Positions 1 to 8,957 of a DNA stretch of 64,000 nt are shown here, in pieces. Source of the DNA: Parvularcula sp. IMCC14364 (lineage in GTDB: Bacteria; Pseudomonadota; Alphaproteobacteria; Caulobacterales; Parvularculaceae); contig NZ_CP132334.1 of the NCBI RefSeq assembly GCF_030758415.1, positions 1,550,001-1,614,000 of the forward strand, given 5' to 3'. Position numbers and translations under genes: made by a program. The notes under the pieces were generated by a model. The model was not told the DNA's origin. It saw only the letters and a program-made list of their open reading frames with translations, and ran no database searches. How positions within the stretch are numbered: the first letter of the stretch is position 1; each line of letters starts with the position of its first letter.

Positions 1-333
1 CGCGCAGTGATTAACAACATGTTCCGCAACAGGCGCCGCGGATGATGGGTCTACTGACAGCAGTTTGTTTAGGTCACCGATAACTCGTAGCCGAACAGTA
101 TCTAATGCCGAGAACATAATTCTACCCAGCCTGTTTTTCTTTCCGACCGGTAACGTTTCACGCCTAAGAAAATTTCTTATGCTACCCTCCGAGAGTCCGG
201 ACGCCTTACTGGCTTCAGCGACAGTGAAGGCGTAATCTGTGGGATCAAAGGGAGTACCAGAAAGCTCATGCTGCTCATCAAGCGTGGGCATATGCCTTGC
301 TAAAATACGTGCCGCTTCATTTTCTTTTGCCAT
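1..333 (-). CDS. MerR-like helix-turn-helix protein (partial, open at left edge)
   Basis: An open frame of 111 codons runs off the left end of the window. It starts at ATG 333 with a GGAG ribosome-binding site about 7 nt upstream. Residues 36-56 have the pattern of a MerR or excisionase-type recognition helix (FTVAEASKASGLSEGSIRNF), followed by basic residues and a GRIMFSALDTVRLRVIGDL segment that matches the second helix and wing of this fold. Such proteins act as DNA-binding regulators or excision factors in mobile elements. Its position next to the small repressor-like genes of the element suggests control of excision or early transcription. That role is inference, and the C-terminus is not visible. 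Confidence 0.6.
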   Translation of the reverse strand, partial: MAKENEAARILARHMPTLDEQHELSGTPFDPTDYAFTVAEASKASGLSEGSIRNFLRRETLPVGKKNRLGRIMFSALDTVRLRVIGDLNKLLSVDPSSAAPVAEHVVNHCA

Positions 334-506
334 GCGAATTCTCCATTATTCGCACAACTTACCATGAGTCACGTGACTAACTCAAGCGTCAAATGAAATA
401 AAATGCACCTTCCGTTAAGGTTGCAACAGCATTCACCTGTAATCTGCTAAACCAGCAGGGAGTAGGTGGCTCTGCGCGAGCCACCTGTCCGCGATACAGT
501 AAAGGA

Positions 507-698
507 TTAAACCAGCAGCTTGTGTTCTTTTCGGAGCTTGTCCTTCAGCACTTCCTGCTCGTCCAAAGCGGCAGCCCTGATCCAGCTAAGATTATCGCGG
601 TGATCCCGATCCAACCATTCATCGCCAGCACTCATGGCCCATATGAACGCCTGCAATCGGCTGAAGCGCTCTTCAATGGAAAATTTTGTATCAGTCAT
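507..698 (-). CDS. Small protein of unknown function (63 aa)
   Basis: This small charged protein lies just downstream of the 106-residue gene. The frame also has an ATG at 713 that overlaps the upstream stop as ATGA. However, a strong GGGAGGT site sits 4-5 nt before the ATG at 698, inside the first five codons of the longer version, so 698 is the more likely start. The product is soluble, with Trp and Asp/Glu/Lys-rich helices and no recognised motif. Tight coupling to the preceding gene suggests a shared function in the element. Family unknown. Confidence 0.5.
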   Translation of the reverse strand: MTDTKFSIEERFSRLQAFIWAMSAGDEWLDRDHRDNLSWIRAAALDEQEVLKDKLRKEHKLLV

Positions 699-709
699 AT
701 CTACCTCCC

Positions 710-1030
710 TCATTTGACATGCCGCATAACGTCAGCCTTGATTGCAGCAAACCAAACCAGCTGCCGGTAGTTTTTGAAATCACTCATCGATTCCAGGATT
801 TCCTCCTCATAAAGGCGAAATTTGGCTCTGATAATCCAATCGAGGCTCGCGGGCATCGTCATGAAACGATCTAACGAATCATTCAGTTCATCGAATAATG
901 CCTGCCCTTCCTTCTGGGACGAATTTTGGGCTGCATTGTCAAAATCAGCCCGCGCTTGGGAAAGCCTTTTCCAAGCCTGAACCTGATCCTCTCTTTCTTT
1001 CGCGTCGATTTGATTCACTGTATCCGACAT
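710..1030 (-). CDS. Small helical protein of unknown function (106 aa)
   Basis: ATG 1030 is preceded by GGAGA at a 6-nt spacing. The protein is predicted mostly alpha-helical and soluble, with many charged residues and no membrane segment or signal peptide. It is transcribed divergently from the XRE repressor gene at 1113, leaving an 82-nt shared regulatory gap typical of a genetic switch. Its stop overlaps an in-frame ATG of the next gene. I do not recognise a family; an early accessory protein of the mobile element is likely from position alone. Confidence 0.5.
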   Translation of the reverse strand: MSDTVNQIDAKEREDQVQAWKRLSQARADFDNAAQNSSQKEGQALFDELNDSLDRFMTMPASLDWIIRAKFRLYEEEILESMSDFKNYRQLVWFAAIKADVMRHVK

Positions 1031-1112
1031 TGCTATCTCCGTTGCTAGATTTTCGTAACAGTGCTACGATACATATTATCAAAAACACATCAAGAGAAAT
1101 CGTAACCCGGTT

Positions 1113-1352
1113 ATGAATTTGACTAGCACACAAGTAAAAATGGCACGTGCCGCACTCGGTCTGGGCGTCAGGGATCTAGCCGAACTAGCGGGCGTTTCTC
1201 AGGATACGATATCCAGAATTGAACGAGGAGAAGTGTTAAAGACGGCTACAGTGGCAACTATCTACCAAGCACTAGAAACGGCTGGCGTTCAATTTATTCC
1301 CGAGAATGGCGGCGGTCCTGGAGTGAGATTAAGAAAATGTCCCACAGACTAA
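1113..1352 (+). CDS. XRE-family HTH transcriptional regulator (79 aa)
   Basis: Residues 5-60 form a complete Cro/C1-type helix-turn-helix: QVKMARAALGLGVRDLAELA, then GVSQDTISRIERGEV, then a helix ending in LETAGVQFIPENGGG. This short single-domain type is common in alphaproteobacterial prophages and chromosomes. It lies divergent from the 710-1030 gene and is followed 49 nt later by a 72-residue winged-helix-like gene. Most likely it represses the element's leftward early promoter in the 1031-1112 gap, a role inferred from the layout. No partner toxin is adjacent. Confidence 0.75.
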   Translation: MNLTSTQVKMARAALGLGVRDLAELAGVSQDTISRIERGEVLKTATVATIYQALETAGVQFIPENGGGPGVRLRKCPTD

Positions 1353-1401
1353 AGAACAGAGACTTCAAAGCCCTTATGGTGGAAGATTGTAGGAGATTTA
1401 T

Positions 1402-1620
1402 ATGAACAAATGGCACATGGACGCATTGCAACACGTCAGAACCGAAACGGACCAAGCTAAGGTCGTGGGATGTGACTTCTTCGCCAAAGGACAGCTACCA
1501 GCTGGGATTGGATGGGGGACTCTAGAAGATTTGGAAAAAGCTGGGTTTGTGGAATTCTCGAGTAAGAGTCCAAACCGACAGATCAGAATCACCGATCTCG
1601 GCAGGAAGCAACTGGATTAA
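1402..1620 (+). CDS. Small winged-helix-like protein (72 aa)
   Basis: ATG 1402 follows an AGGAG-type site (position 1390-1395) at suitable spacing. The C-terminal half (LEDLEKAGFVEF, then RQIRITDLGRKQLD) looks like the wing and last helix of a winged-helix DNA-binding fold, where a helix leads to a beta hairpin ending in ITDLGR. The N-terminal half is short and contains one Cys. It follows the XRE regulator on the same strand and may be a second regulator. The assignment rests on this pattern only. Confidence 0.45.
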   Translation: MNKWHMDALQHVRTETDQAKVVGCDFFAKGQLPAGIGWGTLEDLEKAGFVEFSSKSPNRQIRITDLGRKQLD

Positions 1621-1735
1621 CCCCGTCGCGATAGGGGAGAGTACCATCCACGGGGTCTGGGGGTTGATCAATGCACGGCACTCACCCAGTAATCCGTGCC
1701 CGCGCCAAGTCCATCAGGACACCCCGCGGGAAGGC

Positions 1736-2803
1736 TTAACTTGATTGCCAGTCAACCAATGACAAAGCCGAATTCATTTCCGAATCAGTCAGGCCGCCTT
1801 CCTTGGCGGAAATCATGGCGCTGACTATTGCAGTCAGGGATCTTGCCCTGCCCCCGGCATCAAAAGCCTGGAGCGGGCGCATCACATCGAGCCTCACGTT
1901 TGTTCCCAGCTTCTTTGACAATTCCTGGGCCATGCAGTGAGCGATAGGCTGCAACTGCCACTGCGCAAGATGTCTTTGCGCTTCACGTGTCATCGGGCCA
2001 GTCGTTGACGGGTTCATCAGCGCTGGCAAAACACCAAAAGCAGCACAGATTGAATCTTGTGCTGACTTCATGGCTTCAATCGGCATCGCCCGTTCAATGT
2101 CCGGTGTCAGGCTCGAAGGCTTCCAATCTGCTTGTGGTCCCGGTCCACCTGCAGCCGTCACCTGTACGGATTCTCTTAGGAGAACCTGCCCTCTTCGCCC
2201 CCTGAAGCCTGACTGCAGGCGTTCCATGTCAGTTCCAGCACTTTCCGGAAACGGAACGATATTCGAGCCAATGGGTGCATTCTCGTATATGTCACGCAAG
2301 GCTGTTTCAACGGTATCCAGCAAGCCTGCGGTAATGTTTGCTCTACGAAGTGGAGAAATGCCTGTCCATGGCGCGGCAATGTCTCGACCGATCCGGAAAT
2401 GCAGCACTTCACCGGCAAGAGCCGTCAGTGTGCGGCCACCACCTGCCTCAGATATGCTGACACGGTAGGCATTCGGCTCGCCGTCCTTGGTTCGGATATC
2501 CCAATCAGAGCAAGCAATCAGTATATCGTTTCGGATCAAAAACACGCATTCACCACGCAAGGCAAGAGCGCGGCCCGCAAGGGCTAGGTCAGTCGGTCTG
2601 ATAAGATCAGTACCAGTTACATCAGCCAGAGATAGGCCGTTTTCCCAAAGCGATATGCAGGCTTGCACCGTTGCGGTTAGCTCGCCAAGACCACGAGCAC
2701 CACTGATCCAGCTTTCACGCGCTGATATGACCTCAGATGTAAACCCTGAACCAGTTGAGCGCTGTTCAATCGGCTGCTCTTTTTTCCAAAACCTTAAGCG
2801 CAT
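1736..2803 (-). CDS. HK97-family phage portal protein
   Basis: The 355-residue product forms the dodecameric ring through which DNA enters the procapsid. Sequence features of the HK97 portal family are visible: a VQACISLWENGLSLADV helix after the N-terminus, the GEVLHFRIGRDIAAPWTGIS block before the stem, and AFGVLPALMNPSTTG-x-MTREAQRHL in the C-terminal half. It is shorter than many portals (about 400-450), mostly at the ends. ATG 2803 overlaps the end of the connector gene by 10 nt, and a G-rich site lies upstream. It is the last gene of the leftward head operon; downstream genes point the other way. In standard HK97-like modules the portal directly follows the terminase, so its terminal place here is unusual. 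Confidence 0.85.
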   Translation of the reverse strand: MRLRFWKKEQPIEQRSTGSGFTSEVISARESWISGARGLGELTATVQACISLWENGLSLADVTGTDLIRPTDLALAGRALALRGECVFLIRNDILIACSDWDIRTKDGEPNAYRVSISEAGGGRTLTALAGEVLHFRIGRDIAAPWTGISPLRRANITAGLLDTVETALRDIYENAPIGSNIVPFPESAGTDMERLQSGFRGRRGQVLLRESVQVTAAGGPGPQADWKPSSLTPDIERAMPIEAMKSAQDSICAAFGVLPALMNPSTTGPMTREAQRHLAQWQLQPIAHCMAQELSKKLGTNVRLDVMRPLQAFDAGGRARSLTAIVSAMISAKEGGLTDSEMNSALSLVDWQSS

Positions 2804-3387
2804 TGGTATGCCCCCAATCGTCTGTAAGGGCGTAATAGATCAGCAGCCCCGCTATACTGCATGGACCTTGCTGGCCAACTGGGTACGGTTGTTTGACCAT
2901 CTCCCAGGCCGGTCCAACCACCTGATTGCTGCCAAGTCTCAACTGCATAAAATGCGAGCCTACGGATTGCCTCCTGGACTATCGCAGGCGGCACGTCTCC
3001 AGTGCCAACGCTCGCTGTGAAGCGATAGGTCGCATCCTCTAGCACATAACCCAGTGGCGCAGCCTTCAGCGTTACACTGGCCCAGGCTTCATTCTGCCAG
3101 ATTTCAGTTGTGGAGACCGTTGCCGGCTTCAACGGTGTTTCAAAGGTGCCCGGTCCCTCAACGATCCACACGACGGTCCGCACACCCCATCTAAACGCGA
3201 TGTAGGATTCTATCCTCTGCCACAAATGCTCCTGCGGAATATGCGCTGCATGGCTGGCGATAAAGCTATGGTAAGCTGCGACACTATTGCCATCCGGGCC
3301 ATAAGTACCCACGGCAGTGAACAAGTCACTATCCAGAGCTGGCCTTGATGCTGGTTCTGATTCTTCCTCTGAAAGTATGCGGATCAT
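2794..3387 (-). CDS. Phage head-tail connector/adaptor protein (gp6-like)
   Basis: The 197-residue product looks like a DNA-packaging adaptor of the HK97 gp6/GTA g6 kind: an N-terminal part, a beta-rich middle (YVLEDATYRFTASVGTG), a helix PAIVQEAIRRLAFYAVE, and a C-terminal ARSMQYSGAADLLRPYRR tail, the usual ending of these connectors. They bind under the portal and close the filled head. The longer reading from TTG 3399 is rejected: ATG 3387 has GGAGG 5 nt upstream and overlaps the protease stop as ATGA. Head connectors are normally followed by tail-completion genes; here the portal follows instead. Confidence 0.7.
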   Translation of the reverse strand: MIRILSEEESEPASRPALDSDLFTAVGTYGPDGNSVAAYHSFIASHAAHIPQEHLWQRIESYIAFRWGVRTVVWIVEGPGTFETPLKPATVSTTEIWQNEAWASVTLKAAPLGYVLEDATYRFTASVGTGDVPPAIVQEAIRRLAFYAVETWQQSGGWTGLGDGQTTVPSWPARSMQYSGAADLLRPYRRLGAYQCA

Positions 3388-3893
3388 CGCCACCTCCAAA
3401 AACTGGGTGACTTCACCTGCTTGGAGCGGGCCTCAACCGAGGTGCCGGAATATGCTGGCCACGCACTCACAACACTGATTTCCCGAAGGTCAATATCTGT
3501 GAGAACACGCACATCACCATCCCGCATCTCCCCGCCATCTCTCACCAGGAAGCCGAAACTCATGCCGCCAAGGTCTCCACGATCAGCAAGAGCCAATACG
3601 TCACGCCCTGTTGCCGTATCCGGAACGTCCAACTCAAACAAAAGACCATCGTCTGTGTCTGAGAGTCTCAATGTGCCTGTAGAGCGCCTGCCCAGTAACT
3701 TGGACGGATCATGGTCAGCAAAGGCCAGAACATCTGCATCAGATGACAATGTGCGCTCAAAAGCACCCGGTCGAATGCGTTCCTTGAAAGCACCAATATC
3801 AGTTTCAACGCCATAGACAGCCGCCATGCCAGCGAGCTTGCGCCCGCCCTCATTCCGCACTTCCACAAAGTGGCGGTGTAGCAAAGCAGCCAT
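3384..3893 (-). CDS. HK97-family prohead protease
   Basis: This serine protease of the herpesvirus-assemblin fold cleaves scaffold or capsid N-terminal arms during head maturation. Key residues are visible: His in FADHDPSKLLGR, Ser in GGMSFGF, and an acidic residue in LREISVVSAWPAY (H61, S112 and E138 from the ATG start). The length of 169 residues is normal. The start at ATG 3893 has AAGGTGA 6 nt upstream; a TTG two codons earlier is less likely. It lies 11 nt after the capsid stop and overlaps the connector start. The protease normally precedes the capsid, but here it follows it. Confidence 0.87.
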   Translation of the reverse strand: MAALLHRHFVEVRNEGGRKLAGMAAVYGVETDIGAFKERIRPGAFERTLSSDADVLAFADHDPSKLLGRRSTGTLRLSDTDDGLLFELDVPDTATGRDVLALADRGDLGGMSFGFLVRDGGEMRDGDVRVLTDIDLREISVVSAWPAYSGTSVEARSKQVKSPSFWRWR

Positions 3894-3904
3894 CTGCAAT
3901 CACC

Positions 3905-5164
3905 TTACTGGATACCTGAGAGCACTTCGAGCTGTGCTGGCCGTGCAACCGTAACGTCAGCAGTCAGCAAGCCCGTCAGCCTCAAGCCGCCAGAAGCTGC
4001 ATCGCTGTACGGATCGCGGATCACATCAACCGCACCCCAGAGACCCACATAAACTGGCGCAACACCGCCAGTTGGAGTTGTCAGAAGTGCCTGGCTTTCC
4101 GCCGGTGTGCCTGTAGGGGCAGCAAGCGCATTTGAAGTCGTCACAATGTTCGCAGCACCGATATGTGAGACCAAGCGCTCCCATTCTGTGCGGTTAAGAT
4201 CAGCATCGGCTGTACCGTCCAGAGTATCCCATACTTCAGGGCGAATCATCAGCTTCACTTGCGTCGGTGAGTTCACCGCGTTTGCCGTCATGAAGCGCGT
4301 GATTGCTGCACGGAATACACTCCAGGTCGCAGCCGCTGACACGTCCGTGTCGGTGATCGAGTAAGTCGAAACACCAGCAATAACACCAAGAGGCTCGCCA
4401 GATGAACCGGCACCACGGAAAACAGCTTTATCAAGTTCAACCTCGATAGCTGACAGCATATCGCGCCGTACAGCCTGCTCCAGTGCAGCACCTGATTGCT
4501 TCAGTGTTTTGCGTGTAATCTTCATCTGCACACCAAGATTCTGATCTGGTGCCAGAGCCTTGTCAGTAGTCGCAAACGCCGTCGGCCCTGCAACACTGGC
4601 TGTTTCACCGTCTGCCCATCCAGCGGAAACACTGGAAGTAACTACCGGCCATTCACGCTCACCTTGCGGAATACTGATAAACTGTGCGCCCATTCTGGCA
4701 GCCGTTGTTGCAGCGAAGATACGGTCAACAATAGGCATTGTCTGAATTGGGTCTGGCGTACCGCCCGCAACCGTTTCACCTGCGCGTGTATTCAACGCCT
4801 CAATCGGCAACGGAATGCCTCGATATCCGCCCTTCGAACGGAATTCCTCAACAATCTCAGCAGTAGGGCCACTCAATGCCCGACCCTCATCAAGCGCCAA
4901 TGCGACTTGCTGAACTTCAAACCTCTTTAAGAGGTCTGACCATTCTTGCTCACTGCGGCCTTCCAGGTCTTCTGTAGCTTCCTTGCGCTCGGTGTCTTCT
5001 GAGATCAGTGCAGCACGGTAACGCTTCTCATTGTCCTGATATTCCCGGTCAAGCATATCGAGCTTTGTGCGGTTTTCATCTGTGAGGTTATCATTGGCAG
5101 CTAAAGCAGCGAGTTCCTCTCGCAATTCACTTTGGCGGCGCTGTATTTGTGCTGACTTTAGCAT
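3905..5164 (-). CDS. HK97-fold phage major capsid protein
   Basis: The 419-residue protein has an N-terminal charged coiled coil (about 1-85, the delta/scaffold arm), a linker, then the capsid core. HK97-like signatures include ETVAGGTPDPIQTMPIVDRI, the GEREWPVVTSS strand, a KITRKTLKQSGAALEQAVRRDM helix (the spine), GEPLGVIAG, and an AARPAQLEVL-type C-terminus (VARPAQLEVLSG). The protease downstream probably removes the delta arm. With portal, protease and connector beside it, the element should be able to build its own small head. The start ATG 5164 agrees with the family. Confidence 0.9.
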   Translation of the reverse strand: MLKSAQIQRRQSELREELAALAANDNLTDENRTKLDMLDREYQDNEKRYRAALISEDTERKEATEDLEGRSEQEWSDLLKRFEVQQVALALDEGRALSGPTAEIVEEFRSKGGYRGIPLPIEALNTRAGETVAGGTPDPIQTMPIVDRIFAATTAARMGAQFISIPQGEREWPVVTSSVSAGWADGETASVAGPTAFATTDKALAPDQNLGVQMKITRKTLKQSGAALEQAVRRDMLSAIEVELDKAVFRGAGSSGEPLGVIAGVSTYSITDTDVSAAATWSVFRAAITRFMTANAVNSPTQVKLMIRPEVWDTLDGTADADLNRTEWERLVSHIGAANIVTTSNALAAPTGTPAESQALLTTPTGGVAPVYVGLWGAVDVIRDPYSDAASGGLRLTGLLTADVTVARPAQLEVLSGIQ

Positions 5165-5243
5165 GTGTGTCTCCAGTATAAATTGGACTCAATATAAGAC
5201 CGTTCGCACACACTCACAAGTTTTTTCGATATTATTTCCTTTT

Positions 5244-5549
5244 TTAATCGCTTTTTTCGATGCTTATTTGCTTGATGAATTTATCCCACTCTTTGCGTTC
5301 CTTAGATTTTACAGGCCATCCGTTTTCCTGCCTTGTTTTGATGGCATGACAACTTCCACATAGCGTTTGCAGATTATCCATCTCCCAGGCCAAGTCCGGA
5401 TGAGTGCGAACGCGCATGATATGGTCAACTTCCAGCCGCCTCACAGCGCCGCACTGCACGCACGCGAACCCATCCCGTCGGAGAACTTTCTGCCGAAGGG
5501 CCTTCCATCGTGGGCCGCGTGTGATATGACGGGAAGATCGAGTAAACAT
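5244..5549 (-). CDS. HNH endonuclease, phage packaging type
   Basis: The 101-residue protein has a complete HNH zinc module: CVQCG (C30, C33), EVDHI with the catalytic D42-H43, N59, and CGSCH (C64, C67, H68). Phage HNH proteins of this size sit beside terminase genes and help cohesive-end cutting during packaging. Here it lies between the terminase and the capsid gene, separated from the terminase by an antisense gene. Its promoter region (5550-5616) is shared with that divergent gene. A homing endonuclease is the alternative, less likely because of its size and position. Confidence 0.85.
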   Translation of the reverse strand: MFTRSSRHITRGPRWKALRQKVLRRDGFACVQCGAVRRLEVDHIMRVRTHPDLAWEMDNLQTLCGSCHAIKTRQENGWPVKSKERKEWDKFIKQISIEKSD

Positions 5550-5616
5550 TATCTAAAGTTGGTTACAGCCGCTGCAAATGCAAGCAAAGCCTACACTGTT
5601 TTATTGAGAGGAAAAT

Positions 5617-6207
5617 ATGCTTGAATTAATCACTTCAATGTATCTCATGGGTATCTCTCAAGACGGCCCAAGTTGCGCGAAAAAGAACGATGATTCAGAA
5701 CGTCTCCGCTGTTATGATTTAGTCTACCGCGTCACAGCAAGCGCCCCAAAACCCATAGATAGTGATTGGCGGGTGCGTGAAGAAACCTCAAAACTCGACG
5801 ACACCAAGACAGTGTTCATGGAAGTGAATAGTAACGAAAATCATGTCGGGAGATTTGGGCAGGAAGGGAAGCTAAGACTCTCTCTTCGCTGTCAAGAAAA
5901 CACTACAGCGTTGGCCATTTACTTTGCCGGAGAGTTCATGGCGTCAGGCGCATCGGATTACGTTCGGGTAGATTATAGAATCGACGACAATCCGGCATCC
6001 TCTGCAAATTTCGTGGAAAGCACAAACAATGAATGGCTTGGTTTATGGAATGGATCACGTGCAATTCCATTCATCAAGCAGATGTTCGGAGCTTCAACGA
6101 TGTACGTCAGAGCAACTCCATTCAGCGAGAGCAGTGTTGACGGAGAATTTAACATCTCAGGCGTACAAGATGCTATAAAGCCTCTTCGAGAAGCATGCAG
6201 CTGGTAA
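5617..6207 (+). CDS. TagO/VasI-like protein, antisense accessory gene in the packaging operon
   Basis: The 196-residue product matches the type VI secretion-associated TagO/VasI family by pattern: a CAKKNDDSERLRCYD segment near the N-terminus, WRVREETSKLDDTKTVFMEV, LRCQENTTALAIYF, YRID, then LGLWNGSRAIPFIKQMFG and YVRATPFSESSV near the end. The N-terminus is only weakly hydrophobic, so export is uncertain. It is the only plus-strand gene within the leftward head operon, ends 4 nt from the terminase stop, and has its own GAGAGGAAA ribosome site. Base use looks more A-rich than its neighbours. No other type VI gene is present. The layout suggests a moron-like cargo gene with its own promoter; function unknown. 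Confidence 0.6.
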   Translation: MLELITSMYLMGISQDGPSCAKKNDDSERLRCYDLVYRVTASAPKPIDSDWRVREETSKLDDTKTVFMEVNSNENHVGRFGQEGKLRLSLRCQENTTALAIYFAGEFMASGASDYVRVDYRIDDNPASSANFVESTNNEWLGLWNGSRAIPFIKQMFGASTMYVRATPFSESSVDGEFNISGVQDAIKPLREACSW

Positions 6208-6211
6208 AACT

Positions 6212-7774
6212 CTAGGCCCACACAACCCGAGGCGCCCTTGCAAGAGGCTTCGCCAATTGCCTGGCACCCTCGGCAACGGCCAGAACAGCTGCCGATGCCG
6301 GATCAATCCTTCCTAAACTGCGTGACTTTGCGAGTTTGATATTATTCGCAGGGTCTCTAATACAAACGGTCTCAGAAATTGCTGAACGCATCAGAAGACT
6401 CTCAGTAGTCCACACTTTGCCATCAAATACAGCTCTCCTGAAGCGCTCTATATCCTCACCCCCATCCTTGAACCCAAAACCCCGCCAGATAACAGGCGTT
6501 GAAATTCCAGCGGATTGCAGTGCTTCCAGAAACTCTGCCTGCTTGAAACGGTCTGCCAGTAAAGCAATGACCTGCTCACCCTCAACACGTCGCATTGCAG
6601 CCGACAGCCAGGCAGCGACCGGGACAGTCTTGTTGCCAAGAGTCTCTAGCTCTCCTCGTTCGGCCATCTTCAGATAACGATCCCCTACGCCATCATTTAA
6701 GCCACGATTGGCAAGCGACGGATCGGATGGAAACCAGCCATAAACTTCTAGCCTCCCTGTCTTCGGCCAGAAATAAGCAGCAGCTGTCATTGAAGCAGAA
6801 CCGCCCAAGTCCAGCCCTATAACGACACCACCCTCACGGGCAGGTAGCTCATTTGTCTCAGCGGCCAGCCATTGATCCACAGTCAACAATACATCACGCT
6901 CCTCACCGGAGACGCGTTCATTACGGTGATAAAGCCGGAAGGAAGACAGTGTATTACCACCCCGTTGAATTGCTCTTTCAGCCTGCGTCAGAAGCCACTG
7001 ACTTGTCGCGCCAACACCATAATCTGCACCTGGATTGGCTATCAACAAACTGTCCAGATCATCTGCAGGCAGGCTGGGCAGTGGTCTGTGCTCCTGTACA
7101 TAGCAACCAGCCGGAGGTCGATCGATCCAATGCGAAAACGGATGCGTGTCATCAGCAGCAGAGGTTGAAATAATCAGTGCCCGGCCATCTCGCTTGCCAA
7201 GACCAGTCAACAGTGCTTGCTCCAATGCGTCTCCTTTGTCCGTAGGCCAGTGGCCCCTTTCGTCCATCAAAACCAGAGTTGGACCAGAACCAAGAGCAGA
7301 CTTTCCGTCCGCCGCAATGGCTCTGATAACGTGAGGTCCGTTCTCATCGTCGAATTGAATTTCCAGGCGGGGAGACCGGCGAAATGTCAGGCGGGCTTGG
7401 TATTCATCAGGCAAGGATTGCGCGAACCCCTCCGCAAACTGCCAAGCAATTCTGGCCTGATCTCTAGTCTTGGCGGCAAGAATAATATCTCTGCGGGGCT
7501 GTTTATCCCAGACACCCAGCAAAGCGCCAAGGCAAATTCCAGCAGTCAATGCACTTTTGCCATTACCCCTGCTGACACTCAGAACGCCAACATTGTTTTT
7601 CGGGTCTAATGAACCTTCCACGAATGACTTTTGGAACGGTGCAAGCCGAATCTGCTCACCGGCCTTAGGGCCTTCCGGAATTCTCAGCGTCTCCAGGAAA
7701 CGCACGCATTTACTGGCTTTCGTACCACCTCGCAAAGCCTTCTCTGACAGCACTCTTGGTCGACCTTTAGCCAT
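6212..7774 (-). CDS. Phage terminase large subunit
   Basis: The 520-residue motor ATPase/nuclease packages DNA into the head. The N-terminal ATPase has Walker A SVSRGNGKSALTAG (K73), a Walker B with LVLMDE (about 168-172), and coupling motif IISTSA. The nuclease half begins at VVIGLDLGGSASMTAA, the first RNase H-like acidic strand. ATG 7774 has GGAGG 5 nt upstream, so the GTG at 7819 is rejected. No recognisable small terminase gene lies next to it; the usual upstream spot holds only tiny frames. The gene is convergent with the TagO-like gene (4 nt gap). Confidence 0.9.
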   Translation of the reverse strand: MAKGRPRVLSEKALRGGTKASKCVRFLETLRIPEGPKAGEQIRLAPFQKSFVEGSLDPKNNVGVLSVSRGNGKSALTAGICLGALLGVWDKQPRRDIILAAKTRDQARIAWQFAEGFAQSLPDEYQARLTFRRSPRLEIQFDDENGPHVIRAIAADGKSALGSGPTLVLMDERGHWPTDKGDALEQALLTGLGKRDGRALIISTSAADDTHPFSHWIDRPPAGCYVQEHRPLPSLPADDLDSLLIANPGADYGVGATSQWLLTQAERAIQRGGNTLSSFRLYHRNERVSGEERDVLLTVDQWLAAETNELPAREGGVVIGLDLGGSASMTAAAYFWPKTGRLEVYGWFPSDPSLANRGLNDGVGDRYLKMAERGELETLGNKTVPVAAWLSAAMRRVEGEQVIALLADRFKQAEFLEALQSAGISTPVIWRGFGFKDGGEDIERFRRAVFDGKVWTTESLLMRSAISETVCIRDPANNIKLAKSRSLGRIDPASAAVLAVAEGARQLAKPLARAPRVVWA

Positions 7775-7896
7775 TTTCACCTCCACAGCGCGAAAGAAGC
7801 AGTTCGGGTACGGTATCACGCCCCTCAGAGTTTCCGAGCATTGGGACCATTTCTCTTGTCTTCATCGTCTCGTTATCCATTTTATCAGTACTAAAC

Positions 7897-8007
7897 CTAT
7901 ATGACTGTTGGTGAATCCCTGAGCAAAAGGCATAGGACGACCAGCCCTGCTAAAAATAGCAGAGTGGTCCCGATACCTTTGGCGTACAAAATGACTGTCG
8001 GAGCCAT
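7897..8007 (-). CDS. Possible 36-residue membrane peptide
   Basis: The short frame encodes MAPTVILYAKGIGTT followed by a hydrophobic run of about 15 residues (LLFLAGLVVLCLLL) and a polar tail, the shape of a single-pass small membrane protein. It lies upstream of the terminase on the same strand. The ribosome site is weak and the length is within chance, so the call is tentative. A holin-like or regulatory peptide is conceivable. Confidence 0.25.
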   Translation of the reverse strand: MAPTVILYAKGIGTTLLFLAGLVVLCLLLRDSPTVI

Positions 8008-8058
8008 CCCATCGCTTCAGGCCCAATGCGTCATATCGAACTGCGCATCAGTCGGTTG

Positions 8059-8154
8059 CTACTTGCGAGAGCGTTCGTGCTCCCGGCGATCTGGCTTCAA
8101 CCTTTCGGACTGCCATTGATCTTTGATCGCGCCCCGTGGTAGATCATTATCCAT
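8059..8154 (-). CDS. Possible 31-residue charged peptide
   Basis: The frame starts at ATG 8154 with GGTGG about 6 nt upstream and encodes a highly charged peptide (start MDNDLPRGAIKDQWQ, Arg/Lys/Glu-rich end). It lies between the 85-residue gene and the terminase on the same strand. No family recognised; could be chance. Confidence 0.25.
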   Translation of the reverse strand: MDNDLPRGAIKDQWQSERLKPDRREHERSRK

Positions 8155-8215
8155 CGTGTGCCACCGTCATTACGCAAGCCGCGCACTGGTTACCGTCCAC
8201 ACGATTTCCTGATTG

Positions 8216-8241
8216 CCCCGCTGTTGCAGCAGCGGGGTTTT
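8216..8241 (+). terminator. Terminator-like hairpin on plus strand
   Basis: CCCCGCTG at 8216-8223 pairs with CAGCGGGG at 8230-8237 across a 6-nt loop, followed by TTTT. The T run follows on the plus strand only, so it would stop rightward transcription. No plus-strand gene lies immediately before it, so it may insulate the head operon from antisense reading or end an unseen small RNA. Confidence 0.5.
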
Positions 8242-8245
8242 CCTT

Positions 8246-8503
8246 TCACACCTCCGACTCTTCCTTCAGCTTAGATGCGTAAGCATGAGCGGATGCCACG
8301 CACCGAAGCGCCTCGGTTGCCGCCTGCTTGATGATCGAAGCCTTGTATTCAAGATTGCCGACTGAAATGCCTCTGCCATTTCGCAGGTCATTCGAGCAGT
8401 CAGCCATATGCCTTGGTAGCGGTGACACAACGCATTTAAGGTTGGAGAGGGCCACACTTGCATTGTTGCAGAGGTGGATCAGATGATCTGTTTCCTTACT
8501 CAT
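8246..8503 (-). CDS. Small protein of unknown function (85 aa)
   Basis: The product begins MSKETDHLIHLCNNASVALS and is mainly helical with four Cys residues and no membrane segment. Its ATG overlaps the stop of the upstream Cys-rich gene as ATGA, which supports translational coupling and a real gene. It occupies the place where a small terminase or early packaging protein might be found, but shows no clear helix-turn-helix. Family not recognised. Confidence 0.5.
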   Translation of the reverse strand: MSKETDHLIHLCNNASVALSNLKCVVSPLPRHMADCSNDLRNGRGISVGNLEYKASIIKQAATEALRCVASAHAYASKLKEESEV

Positions 8504-8806
8504 AAAGCATTCCCCATCATCACCTGCTCCAATGCAGGGTTGATGCTTCTCAGCTTCTCGCGCTTGTCGAGAAACTCACCGCAGTAGTCGCTAAGATGTA
8601 CTTCCGGGAAGAACTGGCCGTTCTCACAGATGACTGGAGGGTGCCTTCTGCAGACACCGTGCTCAGGCGCTAGAACATCCTGGAAAAGGTTGAAGTAGAA
8701 ACAATTTCGACAGTGGGGATAGCGAGATTTAGTTCCTACAGTTCCGGGTACGTTTCGACTATGTTCCGCACCTAAAGTAGGATCAGTGCATTGTTTTTGT
8801 TGGCAT
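8500..8806 (-). pseudogene. Cys-rich small phage-type protein with a 1-nt frameshift
   Basis: A leftward open frame ending at 8500 encodes a zinc-ribbon-like protein: CRNC, then GVCRRHPPVI, FFPEVHL and DYCGEF, a spacing seen in small phage proteins ending in a CGEF-like motif. The frame has no usable start codon over some 100 codons. ATG 8806 lies in the neighbouring frame, and removing one base from the A5 tract (T5 at 8794-8798 on the plus strand) joins it directly to the frame, giving about 101 residues starting MPTKQCTDPT. The stop overlaps the next gene as ATGA. Either an inactivating frameshift, a sequencing error in a homopolymer, or slippage. Confidence 0.5.
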
Positions 8807-8957
8807 ATTAGCTGGCCCTGCCCGCCACTCCAAAATAATTTCCCCTAAATCTTAAAGACCTGAATGGTATCCGATACTCGATCAATCTGGTTGCCGTGTG
8901 CTATTGTATTTTTCTCCCTTGATCACATCTCTTGTAAAAGCTGCACAGGACCAAAGA

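Follow-up and report, generated by a model that had tools for sequence, protein, structure and literature searches.

Parvularcula sp. IMCC14364 carries an element of 10,487 bp (genome positions 1,548,341-1,558,827) whose insertion site is the 3' end of a tRNA-Ser(TGA) gene. Its right end falls at position 8827 of the window, as we call the whole stretch of 64,000 nucleotides that was analysed, and its left end, reached by extending the sequence leftward, lies 1,660 bp outside the window, directly past the tRNA gene; a first-pass annotation, which had placed the element at 1 to 8806, missed both ends. In the congener G004 the integration site is empty and the element is missing. A close capsid occurs in 2 of 61 genomes, IMCC14364 counted among them, a patchy presence. 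The part of the element left of the window holds an integrase and an HTH regulator only, and the genes beyond the tRNA resemble host core genes (judged by eye). The first-pass annotation had advised a leftward search for an integrase, replication genes and tail genes: the integrase was found there, whereas no replication gene was recognised and neither were tail or lysis genes, which it had named as evidence against its own reading.

Table 1. Features of the element and its ends, in window positions except where genome positions are given.
Feature	Position	Strand	Remarks
attL	genome 1,548,329-1,548,340		left of window
Integrase	genome 1,548,387-1,549,553		adjoins the tRNA, left of window
MerR/HTH-type regulator, 5' part (111 of 199 codons)	1..333	-	Pfam MerR_1 PF13411, 23.9 bits (cut-off 21.6)
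Small ORF, 68 aa	507..713	-	no family above cut-off; homologues in 0/179 loci
Small ORF, 106 aa	710..1030	-	no family match; homologues in 0/179 loci
XRE-type repressor-like protein, 79 aa	1113..1352	+	Pfam HTH_31 and HTH_3 above cut-off
Small ORF, 72 aa	1402..1620	+	weak winged-helix resemblance; DUF6293_C under cut-off
Portal protein, 355 aa	1736..2803	-	Pfam PF04860 above cut-off; homologues in 163/179 family loci
Putative head-tail connector, 201 aa	2794..3399	-	position-based name
HK97-type prohead protease (Peptidase_S78), 171 aa	3384..3899	-	Pfam PF04586, 129 bits; TIGR01543 above cut-off
Major capsid protein, HK97 family, 419 aa	3905..5164	-	Pfam PF05065; TIGR01554 above cut-off; alignment with 19 relatives
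HNH endonuclease, 101 aa	5244..5549	-	Pfam PF01844; phrog_144
VasI-domain protein, 196 aa	5617..6207	+	Pfam PF11319, 57.8 bits; between TerL and HNH
Terminase large subunit (TerL), 535 aa from first start codon	6212..7819	-	Pfam PF03354, PF20441; phrog_9; ATPase and nuclease domains
Small ORF, 85 aa	8246..8503	-	no family match
Small Cys/His-rich ORF	8500..8815	-	phrog_15838 (function unknown), E 7e-5; no Pfam match; start codon unsure
attR core	8816..8827		12 bp, same sequence as the 3' end of tRNA-Ser

The head and packaging genes follow one another in the order TerL-HNH-capsid-protease-connector-portal, as had been read at first pass. All six are open and lie on the minus strand, with none of the truncations that had been considered as a possible objection. 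The connector, for which searches of Pfam, PHROG and NCBIfam gave nothing at E 0.001, owes its name to its place, its size and its conservation, being kept at the same place in 99 of 179 family loci. TerL, HNH, portal and connector together have 281 columns with a uniformity of 95% or more across the family, and the IMCC14364 copy agrees with the family in 277 of these. The connector misses 1 of 20 near-invariant columns and the capsid 7 of 134 (in both cases 97% of relatives have no more misses than this copy), and the protease misses 7 of 29 (99% of relatives).

Around this set lie genes of other kinds. The repressor-like XRE gene lies on the portal side, as the first-pass annotation had it, but reads divergently from the head genes, on the plus strand; homologues occur in 55 of 179 loci, with the same divergence in 53 of 56 matches. 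The MerR/HTH-type gene (full length at L002:14734-15333, about -266..333 in the window) has HMM homologues in 5 of 179 family loci and is a possible excision or control protein. The plus-strand VasI-domain gene, absent from the first-pass annotation, matches phrog_1848 (function unknown), with TIGR03360 far under its cut-off and no homologue in the 179 family loci; on the strand opposite to the head genes, it is probably accessory cargo.

Family scans with Pfam, PHROG and NCBIfam recognised no tail or lysis gene in the element, its leftward part included, in line with the earlier reading, and likewise no small-terminase (TerS), replication or head-closure gene in the IMCC14364 copy. Lysis genes are possible among the small ORFs without a family match, and the 85-aa ORF or the HNH protein could act in place of TerS. 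We also looked in all frames of the element for traces of a replication, gp6 or attachment gene ahead of TerL, using nine other family HMMs plus three of our own, and scores were at chance level. Only the known connector, HTH and XRE genes scored higher, along with a weak match between one cluster and the XRE gene. The PF10145 tape measure is absent from the host genome, and so we found no resident tail source; this search covered the whole genome with that one tail family, and a helper may yet be resident. GTA_TIM is likewise absent in the host, and a match to DUF2460 extends over just 38 of 205 positions.

The search with the capsid that had been suggested at first pass brought out many relatives but no close phage: at least 177 loci among the matches listed encode capsids 53-68% identical to that of IMCC14364, whereas phage records (a match in 13 of 50,697) reach 27.3% at most. 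The order TerL-HNH-capsid-protease-portal, on one strand, is kept in 154 of the 156 loci in which all five genes were found, and the arrangement is therefore more than chance. We tested 51 distinct genome loci for att repeats and found them in 42, of which 39 have them at tRNA genes; the relatives so bounded measure 9.4-11.7 kb (mean 10,404 bp, sd 451), although a size window formed part of the att pass rule and the 14-bp limit was also reached by 13 of 300 control draws. Bounded, tail-less relatives of ~10 kb are thus found in many alphaproteobacteria, which bears out the proposal of an alphaproteobacterial counterpart to capsid-forming satellites. The carriers, which we take to be Rhodobacteraceae, Sphingomonadales and Rhizobiales (orders partly from genus names), include several named cultured strains, among them strains of Ruegeria, Thioclava and Erythrobacter. 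We further examined 244 ORFs from 30 relatives, and the families listed for 145 of them (25 of 88 PHROGs, 25 of 28 Pfam) include no tail family; on the side of replication, some relatives carry AAA_25, D5_N, DUF5906 or O-like genes.

The connector appears to be movable within the family. In 65 other loci a gp6-like connector stands before TerL, and none of the 179 loci has a connector at both places; the gp6-like connector also matches the gp6-like gene of a GTA-like cluster of the host (E 1e-19). The two placements do not form two clean clades, since the best edge of the tree misplaces 10 of 133 tips. The integrase stands before TerL in 35 rows of the locus table that includes IMG/VR, and for genome loci this reflects an alternative position of the integrase, with att on the opposite side, in 13 of 15 tested. 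No exact terminal repeat of at least 15 bp, as in free circular or concatemeric DNA, was present in 97 IMG/VR loci.

According to PMC10690885, cf-PICIs encode their own capsid, protease, portal and connector, plus TerL, HNH and the small terminase subunit. The element resembles them in its own capsid, protease, portal and connector (the last by position and conservation only), in encoding TerL and HNH, and in being an integrated island with an integrase and no recognised tails of its own. Our direct comparison was with one IMG/VR contig, L264, inferred to be of cf-PICI type, which shares with the element an integrase, capsid, S78 protease, portal, connector, HNH and TerL, shows no tail family among its ten proteins scanned, and has the sub-order capsid-protease-portal in common with it. 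As the first-pass annotation had expected, however, the overall order differs: L264 reads capsid-protease-portal-closure-connector-HNH-TerS-TerL, with TerL and HNH after the connector, whereas in the element they precede the capsid. TerS and a D5 primase, hence a replication gene of its own, are present in L264 and not recognised in the IMCC14364 copy. Both capsids belong to Pfam PF05065, yet direct similarity was lacking when the family HMM was compared with this one cf-PICI-type capsid (E 0.37), and the family is smaller, ~10.4 kb against a cf-PICI mean of 14 kb stated in PMC10803314. A special tie through the protease was considered and rejected, because phage records reach 48% identity and the cf-PICI-type protease 46%.

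The main cf-PICI hosts named in PMC10803314 are Enterobacteriaceae, Pasteurella, Morganellaceae and several Firmicutes, with Vibrio added (PMC13230959); Alphaproteobacteria are not among these. Nevertheless, cf-PICIs are described as widely distributed across Bacteria in PMC10690885, and alphaproteobacterial members may already lie within other data; a set of ~900 cf-PICI capsids has been published (PMC13230959). Among the literature matches listed, none names an alphaproteobacterial capsid-forming satellite family. In 5,426 E. coli genomes a search with HK97 TerS-TerL DNA gave matches in 9 genomes, which are HK97-like given their coverage of at least 80% at 87-100% identity; no divergent cf-PICI surfaced.

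The Streptomyces satellites MulchRoom and MiniFlayer have packaging and capsid genes of their own, as the element does (PMC10690885); MulchRoom also encodes an integrase, and none of its genes is annotated as a tail gene. MulchRoom differs in its order (TerS-TerL-portal-scaffold-capsid-adaptor-stopper), its terminal repeats and its scaffold in place of a protease, and the hosts of both are Actinomycetota. PICMIs are also small, integrase-bearing and marine, but PMC10803314 describes them without capsid-remodelling or identifiable packaging genes.

Could the element be the decayed remnant of an HK97-like prophage, with tail, lysis and replication genes gone and head genes left over by chance? 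Its capsid, protease, portal and TerL families are those of HK97-like siphophages, and its TerL is closest to that of HK97 among three compared (27.6%, E 3e-33); the missing replication, closure and TerS genes and the foreign VasI gene inside the head cluster would also fit decay. However, the HK97 order (TerS-TerL-portal-protease-capsid-adaptor-closure, then tail genes) is not that of the element, in which neither the portal-protease-capsid order nor tail and lysis genes were found. Its att ends are sharp, every head gene is open and phage capsids are remote. Above all, the same tail-less core recurs, at numerous tRNA genes and across many hosts, in ~10-kb elements with defined ends, which weakens this view, quite improbable for the locus, and rejects it for the family. 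That the family works while the IMCC14364 copy is decaying or host-fixed concerns this copy only, overlaps with the satellite reading and seems to us doubtful, if conceivable. The departures of its capsid and protease from the consensus, together with the lack of a recognised replication, closure or TerS gene, count against full function. On the other side, integrase and head genes are open, and the protease, which shares 55-57% identity with its counterparts in Reyranella elements, may represent a different allele. L023, the closest relative by tree position, likewise has no AAA_25 match, on a 9.2-kb contig that may be incomplete.

Gene transfer agents are common in Alphaproteobacteria and are host-fixed clusters with tail genes and no integrase. 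A host-tamed particle of this kind would share with RcGTA its HK97-type head genes in an alphaproteobacterium, and the host does have a GTA-like head cluster elsewhere in its genome. That cluster is a separate locus that looks broken, with the usual TerL-portal-protease-capsid-gp6 order and no integrase seen with it; the element has another order, its own integrase and att site, an empty site in the congener and a patchy presence, and we regard the GTA reading as exceedingly improbable. Spread without phage tails, by free heads, vesicles, or conjugation or transformation of an excised circle, would agree with the absence of an identified helper and of recognised tail genes. Yet the element retains a portal and a putative connector, as would be expected of a joint for tails, and PMC10690885 describes cf-PICIs and MulchRoom as users of helper tails, although satellites can differ in this, MiniFlayer having its own short tail-fibre parts and entering together with its helper; tail-free spread is thus very improbable.

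We therefore consider that the element is very probably a whole integrated, tail-less, capsid-encoding phage satellite, cf-PICI-like as judged from its genes. With less assurance, we favour a separate, class-wide alphaproteobacterial satellite family, with an origin independent of the described cf-PICIs, a head-gene order of its own, a connector gene that can change place and a genome kept to ~10.4 kb by a very small self-made head. Infection by a helper phage, or its induction, would relieve the repressor, and the integrase would excise the element. TerL and HNH would then cut its DNA for packing into its own small head, whose packaging limit could account for the narrow size range. The putative connector would accept tails made by the helper, which would also provide lysis, and the IMCC14364 copy, with no recognised replication gene, may need helper replication too.

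Our results suggest that some IMG/VR entries of ~10 kb that pass for "incomplete prophages" are complete, specialised elements. If this interpretation is correct, the satellite strategy would extend to common marine and soil bacteria and the family would offer a test case for the repeated origin of head-making satellites, with cultured carriers in which the need for a helper, the size of the head and the choice of tail are directly testable.

The head genes named in the first-pass annotation, which had proposed a capsid-forming phage satellite with the head order TerL-HNH-capsid-protease-connector-portal, were all found in the Parvularcula sp. IMCC14364 element, open, on the minus strand and in that order. 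TerL, HNH, capsid, S78 protease and portal have Pfam matches; a protein of 201 aa, encoded between the last two, had no match in the libraries scanned and is a putative connector, judged from its place, size and conservation in the family. The genome is a single contig of 3,417,277 bp, of which the window takes up G000:C1 1,550,001-1,614,000. Extension to the left, proposed in the annotation as a way to look for an integrase, led from host core genes up to an rlpA-like gene (by eye), then tRNA-Ser(TGA), and then an integrase ORF beside it. Among the element's scanned ORFs, including those on this side, none was recognised as belonging to a tail or lysis family, in agreement with the earlier claim.

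The final 12 bases of the tRNA-Ser are repeated at the right end of the element, but this 12-mer has 12 copies in the genome and is therefore weak evidence by itself. Stronger proof of the ends is the empty site of a congener (G004), in which one contig carries the same tRNA-Ser followed directly by the right flank of the window and its next genes, and another terminates with rlpA and tRNA-Ser; the tRNA-Ser of the two contigs is presumably a single gene. Taken together, the tRNA-Ser, the 12-bp repeat and the G004 empty site define an element of 10,487 bp. A different right neighbour was seen by eye in another congener (G003). Draft contigs of G004 (L222) and of a further congener, G001 (L223), break off precisely where this tRNA-Ser has its 3' end, which would fit a repetition of that end in those genomes. 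IS3-type transposase genes lie in the host flank.

Features of the element, its host and its relatives (G000:C1, the IMCC14364 contig; L-numbers, extracted loci)
Feature	Location	Strand	Remarks
Element	G000 1,548,341-1,558,827		tRNA-Ser to 12-bp repeat
12-bp repeat	window 8816-8827		
Integrase			388 aa; end faces tRNA-Ser(TGA); Phage_int_M just below cut-off; phrog_216 integrase E 0.006
VasI-domain gene	window 5617-6207	+	PF11319, type VI secretion associated; between TerL and HNH, opposite strand
GTA-like head cluster	G000:C1 ~2,625,700-2,631,100 (L225:10740-16121; 2.63 Mb)		TerL-portal-protease-capsid-gp6, usual order; by eye plus one Pfam match
IS3-type transposase genes	L003:7715-9148		by eye; ~24-26 kb left of element
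RelE/HigB-like and HigA-like pair	L023:6610-7246	-	by eye; after portal
Family capsid, Pseudorhodobacter turbinis	NZ_CP039965.1 396317-397573		61.6% identity

This copy is minimal, with head genes that look intact. Departures from near-invariant family columns number 4 of 281 for TerL, HNH, connector and portal together, 7 of 134 for the capsid (a figure that 97% of relatives do not exceed) and 7 of 29 for the protease (not exceeded by 99% of relatives). Family profiles for replication, gp6, attachment and other functions gave no trace in the element; the nearest relative in the tree (L023) likewise has no AAA_25 match. This copy may lean on a helper for replication, or may be past its prime. 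The VasI-domain gene is absent from the 179 family loci and is likely cargo. In L023, the RelE/HigB-like and HigA-like pair stands where other elements carry an XRE gene.

The element capsid is at most 27.3% identical to those in phage records, 13 of 50,697 of which gave a match. In IMG/VR, 574 of 587 pattern-matching stretches encode a relative, as do 197 of 209 in bacterial genomes. A 16.5-kb record labelled as an induced prophage (LR881103.1), whose S78 protease is 44% identical to that of the element, may be another capsid-forming satellite. The family list was drawn from the best 80 matches in IMG/VR, the best 80 in genomes and 21 from a first IMG/VR scan, and its 177 loci have capsids 53-68% identical to the element's. 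By titles and taxonomy, the carriers among the best 80 genome matches are presumably nearly all Alphaproteobacteria; one is a MAG labelled Oceanospirillaceae and two are labelled only Pseudomonadota or Proteobacteria. The element is patchily distributed: close capsids occur in 2 of 61 near genomes (IMCC14364 included), 2 of 385 in a class sample and, in a sample of the phylum, 5 of 398, each of them an alphaproteobacterium. The Pseudorhodobacter turbinis capsid lies on a 1.58-Mb replicon filed as a plasmid, and the family is therefore not only on main chromosomes.

Gene anatomy was counted with local profiles on 179 loci (the list plus L038 and L039), keeping in duplicates where the same element occurs twice: capsid 179, protease 177, HNH 176, TerL 172, portal 163, integrase 121 (HMM matches), connector 99 and XRE 55. 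TerL-HNH-capsid-protease-portal run on one strand in 154 of the 156 loci having all five, the exceptions being L034 and L138. A gp6-like connector (Pfam Phage_connect_1) precedes TerL in 65 loci, the other connector lies between protease and portal in its 99, and the two never occur together (0/179); a division of these placements into clean clades was rejected, as the tree is not cleanly split. A scan of non-core ORFs in 30 complete elements covered the 145 longest out of 244. The listed families were replication (AAA_25, D5_N, DUF5906, DnaB-like, O-like), head closure (Phage_HCP, Hc1), HTH regulators and a few others; of the 88 PHROGs and 28 Pfam families matched, 25 each are listed, and none of these is a tail family. 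Integrase matches flank the head genes on both sides in L056, L113, L151, L188 and L196, a pattern that adjacent or tandem satellites at a single tRNA could explain.

End repeats were sought in 41 loci with the integrase after the portal: 31 had a 15-56 bp repeat bounding 9.0-11.2 kb (in 28 cases at a tRNA identified by ARAGORN), two had exactly 14 bp outside that range and eight had less. Of 15 loci whose integrase precedes TerL, 13 had repeats (14-57 bp), each at a tRNA. L039 is a duplicate of L110, and four loci entered both tests, which leaves 51 distinct loci of the 80 from genomes; the other 29 had no integrase match or not enough flank. Bounded elements were thus found in 42 of 51 loci (39 at a tRNA), spanning 9,367-11,731 bp (mean 10,404, sd 451), a tightness partly built in because the size window formed part of the att rule. 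Reversed sequences, drawn 300 times as a control, reached 14 bp in 13 draws. Among IMG/VR contigs taken for isolate genomes by record number, 23 of 34 measure 9.0-12.5 kb (median 10.1 kb).

Capsid-forming PICIs (cf-PICIs) are among the closest known systems. PDB chain 9gyi_B ('Major head protein') is related to GTA capsids, and we take it for He et al.'s (2025) cf-PICI capsid, because the available text of PMC12846349 groups a cf-PICI capsid with that of RcGTA. The chain led to 41 IMG/VR contigs. In a contig presumably of this type (L264) the order is integrase, D5 primase, capsid, protease, portal, closure, connector, HNH, TerS, TerL, no tail family was found among ten proteins scanned of its 20 ORFs, and the gene content fits the cf-PICI type. 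Both this contig and the family run capsid-protease-portal, unlike HK97 (TerS-TerL-portal-protease-capsid), but TerL-HNH lead in the family whereas HNH-TerS-TerL trail in L264; the order of MulchRoom is different again from all three. Both capsids match PF05065 but share no direct similarity (E 0.37), and the element TerL is nearer to that of HK97 (E 3e-33) than to the cf-PICI-type TerL (E 1e-8).

In the available text of the sources compared, cf-PICIs are widely distributed across Bacteria (PMC10690885), the main hosts given do not include Alphaproteobacteria (PMC10803314), three radiations are cited (PMC11389934), Vibrio satellite-plasmids are added (PMC13230959), and a Rhodobacteraceae prophage paper does not use the word 'satellite' (PMC8224337). 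No alphaproteobacterial capsid-forming satellite family is named among the literature matches listed, and the family is a candidate for novelty in print.

Integration is site-specific, head and packaging genes are self-coded, recognised tails are lacking and the core is conserved family-wide. A helper would trigger excision, the element's own TerL and HNH would pack its DNA, and a small head would receive its tail, and lysis, from the helper. The host's GTA looks broken, because GTA_TIM is absent from the genome and DUF2460 has only a short match, 9 kb from the GTA-like cluster; PF10145 is also absent from the genome. The host's own tail sources thus look poor, and the helper would therefore be an incoming or unrecognised phage.
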